Source of the DNA: Gemmatimonadota bacterium | Lineage (GTDB): Bacteria > Gemmatimonadota > Gemmatimonadetes > Longimicrobiales > Gaopeijiaceae | Direction: 5' to 3' | Length of the DNA: 64,000 bases | Assembly (NCBI GenBank): GCA_027623325.1 | Contig: JAQBXY010000004.1 | Location: forward strand, 1-64,000 | Shown: positions 25,422-31,227 of the stretch, piece by piece | How positions within the stretch are numbered: position 1 is the stretch's first letter | Layout: every line of letters starts with the position of its first letter | Translations under genes and position numbers: made by a program | The notes under the pieces: model-generated | The model's database searches: none | What the model was told of the DNA's origin: nothing | Seen by the model: the letters and a program-made list of their open reading frames with translations, nothing else

Positions 25422-27341
25422 ATGCCTCAGTCAGACCACCCCTCAGGATTCAGCGCGTTCCTCGCCGAGATGCGGCGACGCCACGTCGTTCGATTCGCGT
25501 TCGGCTACGCGGCGGCCGCTTTCGTGGTCCTACAGCTGGCCGAGATCGTACTTCCCGCTTTCGGGATCGGCGACGGAGGACTGCGAACGCTCGTGGTCCT
25601 GACCGCCCTGGGCTTTCCGCCGGCTATGGTGCTGGCTTGGGTCTAGGACCTCACGACGGAGGGGATCAAACGGACCGACGAGGGCAATGACGCCGGCCCG
25701 ATCCTTGGCCGGGTTGCGTTGCTCGCCCTCTTGGTCGCGACGACCGGGGTAACCGGAGCGCTGGGTGTGTACCTCGCCGAGCAGGGGGTCTTCGATGCCG
25801 TGGAGGCAGACCCGGATCGACGCGCGACCCCCGTCCGCGCAATAGCGTACGTGCCGGGCCAAGCGATTCGTTCGGTCGCCGTTCTCCCGTTGGACGACTT
25901 TTCGCCGGACGGCAACCAGGCCTATTTCGCCGCGGGCATGCATGAGGAGTTGATCGCCAAACTCAGCATTCTCGACGGAATCCGAGTCGTCTCTCGCCGC
26001 AGCGTCATGCAGTACGCCCAGACCACCCTGAGCATGCCGGACATCGGACGAGAGCTCGATGTCGACGTGGTGGTGGAGGGGTCGGTTACCCGAACCGGCG
26101 ACCGCACCCGGGTCACGCTCCGCGTCGTTCACGCTCCCAGTGAATCCGATATCCAGACGCTCCAGTGGGACCGCGCAGAGGTCAGCGACGTGTTGGCCTT
26201 CCAGACGGAGGTCGCGCACGCGCTTGTTCACGAGATCGACGGCGCGCACGAAGAGACCGTGTTCACCCGCACCGCGGCGAACGTCATGCCGGCGGCTCAG
26301 GACGCATACTTCAAGGGCAAGTACGAATACGAACGAGGGACACCCGACGGTTATCGAAGCGCCTTCGACTACTTCGAAGAGGCCCTCGTCGAGGACCCGG
26401 ACTTCGCCCCGGCCATGGCAGGGATGGCGGGCGCTCGCTTCCTGATTGGGCTGGAAGATCCCGAGGATTCGGGACATGAGTTCTCGCAGGCACACGAGGA
26501 AGCCGTCGCCGCCCTCGATCTCGATTCGACCTCCGTCGAGGCGATGGAGGTCCTGGCGTTCATTGAACGAAGTATGCCTCACGTCATGGGTACGGAACCC
26601 GAGATCCCTGGACCCTTGGGGGCTCCGAAGACGATGAGAGTGGTCTCGATTCCTGGCGGTTCGGACTCCATCATGATCGACGTCGCGGCCTTTGACACGA
26701 CATGGGTATCAGCGGTGACCGCACTCGGTGAACGCATTGAAGAGCAGGTTCGCCGACGGAGGATTTCCCCAGAGCGAGACGGGGACCCGAGGGGAGCGCT
26801 GGAGGTTCGTCAGCTCATGAGCACGGGCCGATACGCGGAGGCCGCGACTGTACTGGACGAGATCGTTAGCGGCTCTCCGGGAACGTCTGCTGCGTGGGAG
26901 ATGCTCGTTCGCGCAAACGTATCGGCAGGGGACGAAAGGGAGGCGGTGGCGGCGGTCAGGCGTTGGCACGAGTCAGCGGCTCCGGGTGCTCCCAATGAGG
27001 TCGAACTGTCACAACTGACCAGCGCTGTCGCGCGTGACGGAGCGGAGGGCTATTGGGCCTGGACGCTCGACCGTCTGACCGCGGCCGATGCGGCGGGCCG
27101 CGCGGTACCCCGAGCGGATTTGGCGGCCGCGCACGCGGCGCTCGGCCACCGTGACGAAGCGTTCGGATACCTCTTTCAGGCCCTGGAGGCGGGAGAGCCC
27201 GGCGTGCTGAGCATTCGGTCGGACCCGGTGTGGGACGACCTGCGCAACGACGACCGATTCCGGGAAGCCGGACGTCAGGCCCAGATGATGCGCTTCTCGC
27301 CCATCAGACGTGCCCCCGGTGCCCGGCCCCCGCGCGGCTAG
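25422..27341 (+). pseudogene. FlgO/TolB-N-type TPR membrane protein interrupted by one in-frame amber codon
   Basis: A single reading frame runs from the ATG at 25422 to 27341 except for TAG at 25644-25646. The first part (74 residues) has two membrane helices of the type placed before FlgO-like domains in adenylate-cyclase-related proteins. After the stop the frame continues D-L-T-T-E-G-I-K-R-T, which normally follows A-W-(F/Y) in this family. Then come a third helix, a FlgO-like domain (S-V-A-V-L-P-L-D-D-F, later V-D-V-V-V-E-G-S-V) and a TPR-like C-terminal region. A TTG at 25719 could restart translation without the N-terminal helices. The cause may be mutation, sequencing error or read-through. 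Confidence 0.75.
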
Positions 27342-29580: not shown

Positions 29581-30567
29581 TCACTCGAAGCTACTGGGCA
29601 CCGCCTCGAACATCTTCGCGGCCATGTCGTCCGCCGAGCACATCGTCGACAGATCGAGGTCGAAATCGGAGTGTTCAGGAGGCCCCAGCTTTTCGACGAA
29701 TTCCTGAACCTCTCGAGCCGAAAGTCCCGCGGCCTTCATCTGATCGACAGACAGGGTGACTCCGTCCCGGGCAGCGACACCCTCCCCTGCGGCGACGACG
29801 AGCTTCGAGAGTACCTCGCGCTCGACCCTCGTGAACTTCTGCGCCTCCAGGCCATAGTCGATCCACGCTTCGTAGGACAGCGGAGCGACACGCCGGACCA
29901 TGGCCGCGATGACTCGTGCGAACTGCTGAATCTCCCACTGCGCTCGTGAGTCGACACGAAGTGTCAGGAAGTGAAGAAGGTTGTGGAGGTCGATCTTCCA
30001 GTACCACTGCGTGTAGGTCGACACCGGTAGGTCGATCCGCGCGATCTCGCGAGCGACATCCTCCCCGAGCATCCACCCATACGCGTCGCCGGCGTCCGCG
30101 CGCAGCCGCTCCCACCGCTCCACCGCCTCTGCATAGACCGAGTCGGAAGCATCCCCTTCCCGACCCTGGTTGTTCGACCGACTCTGAAGCGCGAATTGGC
30201 CCTTCTCCGGCGTGTAGAACAGGAGAGGCATCAACGAATAACGAGCAGACAGTTCATTGACCGACGCTGTCCGGTGACGGATCCACTGCCGCGCCACGAA
30301 CATGGGCATGGCGCAATGGAACTTGAACTCGACCATTTCCGACGGGGTGGTGTGCTGGTGCCGACGAAGGTACCGGACGAGGCCGCGGGTCTGAGAGACC
30401 TTCCGCGTACCAAAGCCATAACTGACCCGGGCGGCACGCTCGACATCCTCATCCGACCCCATGTAGTCGACGAGCGAGACGAAACCGTGATCCAGGACCG
30501 GGAAATACCCGCCCAGAATCTCTTCGGCGGCAGGAACGGTTGGTCGCTTCGTTTCCATGATATCCAT
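29581..30567 (-). CDS. thyX: FAD-dependent thymidylate synthase
   Basis: ThyX makes dTMP from dUMP with methylenetetrahydrofolate, FAD and NADPH. The signature R-H-R-T-A-S-V-N-E-L-S (97-107) is intact. The 328-residue length exceeds many ThyX proteins (about 220-260) because of a C-terminal extension after residue 250 that is rich in charged residues. Downstream His, Arg and Gln residues of the active site lie in the helical second half (for example L-R-V-D-S-R-A-Q-W-E-I-Q). It appears to be the first gene of the thyX-radical SAM-phosphoesterase-asparaginase run. Two in-frame ATGs (30567 and 30558) could serve as the start. Confidence 0.95.
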   Translation of the reverse strand: MDIMETKRPTVPAAEEILGGYFPVLDHGFVSLVDYMGSDEDVERAARVSYGFGTRKVSQTRGLVRYLRRHQHTTPSEMVEFKFHCAMPMFVARQWIRHRTASVNELSARYSLMPLLFYTPEKGQFALQSRSNNQGREGDASDSVYAEAVERWERLRADAGDAYGWMLGEDVAREIARIDLPVSTYTQWYWKIDLHNLLHFLTLRVDSRAQWEIQQFARVIAAMVRRVAPLSYEAWIDYGLEAQKFTRVEREVLSKLVVAAGEGVAARDGVTLSVDQMKAAGLSAREVQEFVEKLGPPEHSDFDLDLSTMCSADDMAAKMFEAVPSSFE

Positions 30568-30606: not shown

Positions 30607-31203
30607 CTAGACGGGGTCGAGCCCCCAGGGCCGAATGAAGTCCTCAGCCTCTACTCCGAGCGCGTGCGCGACCCGTGTTATGTAGTTGAAGTACCCGATC
30701 ACCTGGGTGGCGTCGTGGATCGCCTCGTCATTGAAACCGTGAGAGCGAAGTTCATCGAGGTCCTCAGGCCCCATCGATTCCCTCAGGTGCGAGAGCTTCT
30801 CCGCGTAACGGCACAATGCCTGATCTGCCTCAGTCAGTTCCGCACTTCGCCAATCTCGCGCGATCGCGTGAACGAATGCGTCGGCCCTCGCTTCGCTATC
30901 GAACATCTCCTCGACCTCGGCCCGGAGGTCATGCGCGTGCGCCTGCGTTCAGTAGAAGCAGTCGTTCGCCTTCGCGGTGACGACGGCGAGCATCTCGCGC
31001 TGCCAACGAGCGAGCGGGGACGAAGCGACCATGAGGGCTCCATAGAACTTCATGGATGCGTCCATCGCCCTCGGGTTCAGGCTCATGATGTGGACGATGT
31101 GCCAGACTCGTCCCGCACGCTCAAGGGCCTGGTCGAACTGTTTCTTCAGGAAGCCGGTCGCTTTCGCGATCTCGATCTGTTCGATGTAGGGCATGAGCGG
31201 CAA
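30607..31203 (-). CDS. candidate AhpD-like selenoprotein (UGA read as selenocysteine)
   Basis: Two half-reading frames join through TGA at 30949-30951 into one 198-residue AhpD/carboxymuconolactone-decarboxylase-like protein of the peroxidase-related family. The active-site spacing E70-x11-C82-x2-U85-x3-H89 equals E-x11-C-x2-C-x3-H of AhpD, and the UGA sits exactly at the second cysteine. The frame continues T-Q-A-H-A-H-D-L after it, as in Cys homologues. A hairpin with SECIS-like geometry follows. AhpD-like proteins with Sec were reported from marine metagenomes. The TTG at 31203 has GGAG seven bases upstream; ATG 31194 is the alternative. A Cys-to-stop mutation (TGC to TGA) or sequencing error is the rival reading. 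Confidence 0.75.
30913..30930 (-). promoter_or_regulatory. candidate bacterial SECIS hairpin
   Basis: In the mRNA, GACCUC and GAGGUC form a perfect 6-bp stem around a 6-base loop CGGGCC with G at its second position. The stem begins 18 bases and the loop 24 bases after the UGA, within the 16-37 base window usually given for bacterial SECIS loops. The element lies within the coding frame, as it must for SelB-dependent decoding. Confidence 0.65.
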
Positions 31204-31227
31204 CGTGGTTCTCCGCCCTCGAGCGCG

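Follow-up and report, generated by a model that had tools for sequence, protein, structure and literature searches.

An AhpD-like gene on the minus strand of a Gemmatimonadota contig (positions 30607-31203 of the window, by which we mean the whole stretch of 64,000 nucleotides that was analysed) very probably encodes a selenoprotein in which an in-frame UGA is read as selenocysteine (Sec). Judging from the sequence, we put the probability of this reading at about 0.95. Computational analysis revealed a conserved UGA, a covarying SECIS hairpin, a complete Sec machinery in the genome, and the active-site motif and fold of the AhpD-like family.

Gene structure and family assignment

The gene runs from a TTG start codon at 31203 to a TAG terminator (30609-30607, minus strand) and codes for 198 amino acids; use of an alternative ATG start (31194-31192) would give a product of 195 amino acids. 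A possible Shine-Dalgarno element, GGAG (31211-31214, minus strand), lies 7 bases 5' of the TTG codon. Read from 31203, the minus-strand frame gives LPLMPYIEQ...REMLAVVTAKANDCFY-U-TQAHAHDLRAEV..., where U stands for the TGA at 30949-30951. This codon is residue 85 when counted from TTG, the numbering used here, and residue 82 when counted from ATG. Re-reading the sequence returned the same frame, coordinates and hairpin for this gene as in the initial annotation. Translation with table 11 splits the gene into two ORFs of 84 and 99 amino acids, and it would thus be lost or labelled as broken by standard annotation.

The protein passed the curated cut-off of TIGR01926 (peroxidase-related, AhpD-like) with 124.6 bits versus 81.8, and also matched PF02627. 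It remained below the cut-off of AhpD sensu stricto (TIGR00777, 14.4 bits versus 191.95) and below that of NF041238 AhpD_rel_CFYUT (61.6 versus 175). The latter family, the 'hypothetical protein 1' of the Sargasso Sea, has the C-F-Y-U-T string and an AhpD-type domain in common with the window protein, but its model comprises 357 positions and the window protein matches only the second half.

Active site, predicted fold and possible reactions

The active-site motif E70-x11-C82-x2-U85-x3-H89 is encoded at 30937-30996 (minus strand). The TGA takes precisely the place of the second Cys in E-x11-C-x2-C-x3-H, as originally proposed, and Sec is the second redox residue of the C-F-Y-U motif. E70, C82, Y84, U/C85 and H89 are invariant across 34 aligned homologues (E67, C79, U/C82 and H86 are the motif residues in the ATG numbering).

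The fold was predicted with Cys modelled in place of Sec and reached a pLDDT of 96.1. Foldseek matched it to 6k40, 2prr, 2pfx, 2oyo and 3c1l, which are all peroxidase-related AhpD-like structures. The nearest solved structure, 6k40 (DR_1765), displays the same fold (TM 0.83-0.86, 34% identity in Foldseek) and the same catalytic motif, but has Cys where the window protein has Sec. The AhpD of M. tuberculosis (TIGR00777; 1gu9) carries the Glu, Cys, Cys and His of the proton relay at the same spacing as the window protein; however, it differs by another chain topology, a low similarity and TM values of 0.44-0.49. In the AhpD family, these four residues form the proton relay together with a water molecule (PMC3141380).

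Peroxide reduction is the probable main reaction of the AhpD-like selenoprotein. The product would be an all-helical thiol/selenol oxidoreductase of the AhpD fold, belonging to the TIGR01926 group. We take the second Cys of the motif (Cys133 in M. tuberculosis AhpD) to be the attacking residue; Sec85 occupies that position, which would fit a gain in nucleophile reactivity. In the scheme that we infer for the peroxidase activity, its substrate and its reductant, Glu70 and His89 with a water molecule would deprotonate the active site, Sec85 would attack a peroxide, Cys82 would resolve the selenenic acid as an Se-S bond, and a cellular thiol system would regenerate the enzyme.

A less probable alternative is that the gene encodes a true selenoprotein whose Sec site mainly serves a role other than peroxide reduction, be it dehalogenation, disulfide or adaptor chemistry, or a function tied to the neighbouring thyX. 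Since the debrominase Bmp8 (6ohi), which has the same fold, was also among the Foldseek matches, another reaction on this fold is conceivable. However, its identity with the window protein is just 16%, and the closest relatives in both sequence and fold form the peroxidase-related group. An adaptor role has a precedent in M. tuberculosis, where AhpD acts as adaptor for AhpC; the AhpD-like protein PA0269, when tested, was weakly active as a peroxidase (PMC3141380). Against a non-peroxide role, deletion of DR_1765 in D. radiodurans, the nearest homologue with functional studies, leads to higher H2O2 sensitivity; mutants of its CxxC cysteines complement poorly (reviewed in PMC8945050).

The link to thyX was also considered. 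This gene (FAD-dependent thymidylate synthase; 29581-30567, minus strand; TIGR02170, 168.4 bits) is the next one downstream and begins 39 bases past the TAG of the AhpD-like gene, on the same strand. The two genes are adjacent in 13/13 genomes of the genus having the orthologue, which speaks for a shared role, and also in G032 and G036, from two other genera of the same family. In more distant relatives, comparison of the neighbourhoods did not show thyX beside the AhpD-like gene. Thus, the adjacency pointed out in the initial annotation is kept within the genus and two other genera but lost beyond them. Being limited to a few genera, it is weak evidence on function, and it is better read as local synteny than as a sign of functional pairing.

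Conservation of the in-frame TGA

The reading of the TGA as Sec was assessed in homologous loci by tblastn. TGA was present at the motif codon in all 109 fetched loci with a readable site; some genomes were entered twice, so that these represent approximately 99 distinct sequences. TGA-bearing loci were found in the same genus, at 67-77% identity, and also in Planctomycetota, Verrucomicrobiota, Chloroflexota, Actinomycetota, Acidobacteriota, Myxococcota and Fidelibacterota. In addition, 395 genomes of the phylum were searched; among the matches listed, and with fragments missing the Sec site set aside, all those of at least 41% identity that span the site have TGA. Among the homologues compared, versions without the stop (Cys) were seen only up to about 39% identity. 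The family sequence goes on in frame past the TGA, as had been claimed, and both sides are conserved among relatives. Degradation of the downstream half in relatives was looked for and was not found, identity being 66.8% downstream of the TGA versus 63.0% upstream.

The initial annotation had also allowed for a mutation or error (TGC to TGA). An error of sequencing or assembly, or a recent change of TGC or TGT into a nonsense codon, would leave a TGA in an ordinary Cys-containing AhpD-like gene. Such breaks or errors do occur in this assembly, as indicated by a TAG at 25644-25646 (plus strand) that interrupts a TPR protein gene, for which at least five orthologues in the genus have no stop at that place. 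This TAG, presumably an isolated break or error, behaves in the opposite way to the TGA: it is shared by no relative in the genus, whereas the TGA lies at the same codon in every readable homologous locus. Because the same TGA recurs in independent assemblies from many phyla, a local error can be considered as practically excluded. Conservation of the downstream half and the constraint on the SECIS hairpin described below argue in the same direction. Another TAG in the window (52533-52531, minus strand) interrupts a probable outer-membrane barrel gene, for which the search found no close orthologue in the genus.

Several loci deserve a separate comment. In the homologue from G030, a second TGA was reported besides the Sec TGA. 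tblastn over residues 4-194 shows the Sec TGA alone, which places the extra TGA right where the match ends; it is probably the terminator of the gene. The genus orthologue in G003 (L149, G003:C5:37863-38439) is frameshifted just past the UGA, likely by an assembly error. The genome that contains the window, G000, also holds a second, divergent TIGR01926-like homologue of about 41% identity (L131, G000:C53:75590-76126), whose motif has TGA in the same place (C-F-Y-U-I-N-H-H). Finally, MAG contigs labelled as Gammaproteobacteria (L054, L058, L059 and L061) carry near-identical selenoprotein genes that are nested among those of Gemmatimonadota; these labels probably result from mislabelling or misbinning.

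SECIS hairpin

The UGA is followed by a bacterial SECIS hairpin, GACCUC [CGGGCC] GAGGUC, at 30913-30930 (minus strand). The perfect 6-bp stem, 7 bp with the flanking U-G, pairs 30930-30925 with 30918-30913 and closes the loop CGGGCC (30924-30919). The hairpin starts 18 bases past the UGA, and the loop comes after 24 intervening bases with a G in second position, in agreement with the original description. According to a 2026 review (PMC13188914), the bacterial SECIS model has a loop of 3-9 nt, a stem of 4-16 bp, a G among the first two bases of the loop and a spacing of 16-37 nt from the UGA; the window hairpin (loop 6, stem 6-7, G second, spacing 24) lies within these limits.

When folded alone, the hairpin has an energy of -8.1 kcal/mol, and the 43-base stretch starting at the UGA does fold into it. 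In the single-sequence fold of a 66-base stretch (z 0.65), the hairpin is absent from the minimum-energy structure; therefore, a hairpin seen in this one sequence is not above chance. An Rfam scan of the window returned nothing at gathering thresholds.

Comparison between genes was more informative and raised the hairpin well above chance level. All six pairs are kept in 52 of the 53 distinct genes of the clade displaying DLRxE[VI], while 8.9 are expected from shuffling synonymous codons inside each gene. Stem and G[G/U] loop are kept together in the same proportion (52/53), with a shuffle expectation of 4.6. Codon usage in the hairpin reflects this constraint. For Leu, 52 genes use CTC and one uses CTT, though CTG is the most frequent Leu codon in the rest of their sequence, and for Arg the 53 genes use no codon other than CGG or CGT. 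Where Asp is encoded by GAC, the partner codon is GTN; where it is encoded by GAT, the partner is ATC (15) or, in one case, GTT. A compensatory C-G/U-A exchange in the stem hence couples the synonymous choice of Asp codon to the choice between Val and Ile. Double changes in the stem amount to 8 versus 1.7 in shuffles (0/500 shuffles), but since the sequences are related, these covariation counts are not independent events and are inflated. With the partner strand slid by one to three columns, pairing fell from 99.6% to at most 50%, and RNAalifold independently recovered the same stem, extended by one outer pair. Among 35 genes of the Planctomycetota-type group (DFG), 24 keep the stem in a register displaced by one base, compared with 7.4 expected; the G[G/U] loop signal was not enriched in this group.

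The hairpin is thus a clean example of a SECIS located in a coding region, where pairing constrains both synonymous codons and the Val/Ile choice.

Selenocysteine machinery

The genome (G000; 3.35 Mb, estimated 100% complete) was searched for selA, selB, selC and selD, as suggested in the initial annotation, and all four were found. tRNA-Sec scored 70.8 bits (gathering threshold 47), with a TCA anticodon and a length of 93 bases, and the profile scores were 533.8 for selA, 323.7 for selB and 381.8 for selD. The four genes are spread over four contigs. SelD (L128, G000:C8:257912-258832) is itself a probable selenoprotein, with an in-frame TGA in SHGAG-U-ACK.

Co-occurrence was examined in a survey of 98 relatives. 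selA is present in 44 of the 48 genomes with TGA homologues, the four selA-less genomes being 63-89% complete, versus 2 of the 10 genomes with Cys homologues only (Fisher p ~1e-5).

A general reassignment or suppression of UGA, for instance to Trp, is most improbable, since in the window TGA is the ordinary stop of 16 out of 36 long open frames, homologues without the TGA carry Cys at the corresponding position, and both the Sec machinery and the SECIS hairpin are present.

For the recoding of UGA to Sec, we infer the following course of incorporation. Translation would arrive at the UGA, where SelB with Sec-tRNA(Sec) would recognize the downstream hairpin; Sec would then be inserted as residue 85, and translation would run on to the TAG.

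Relation to known selenoproteins and significance

AhpD-like CxxU selenoproteins of COG2128 were described from the Sargasso Sea in 2005 (PMC1088965), and an 'AhpD-like 1' selenoprotein was reported in GOS data in 2008 (PMC2398784). TIGR01926 CxxU proteins appear as a selenoprotein family in the 2026 review (PMC13188914). Since such proteins are already published, as the initial annotation stated, the window gene is a new member of a known protein kind. When compared by description, it shares with them the family, the CxxU motif, Sec in second position and a downstream SECIS, and it differs in being a new instance, from a Gemmatimonadota genome, a placement to which the names of the closest named loci also point. 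A literature search on Gemmatimonadota selenoproteins, mostly at the level of titles and abstracts, listed no paper treating this AhpD-like family.

Less expected was that, within the sampling, no Cys orthologue stood close to the window gene. In the tree, whose sampling of Cys homologues did not extend to other phyla, 10/10 Cys rows fell in one clade. The Sec clade might represent an obligate-Sec AhpD-like branch, spread over at least eight phyla with no reversion to Cys, in which Sec is needed where Cys fails. We consider this interpretation doubtful. If it were true, Sec would be required for a reaction beyond the reach of Cys, possibly not simple peroxide reduction.

In Gemmatimonadota and other phyla that have received little study, the analysis places on record a complete Sec system and what looks like an AhpD-like clade with obligate Sec; the lack of Cys versions makes the need for selenium at position 85 a testable question.
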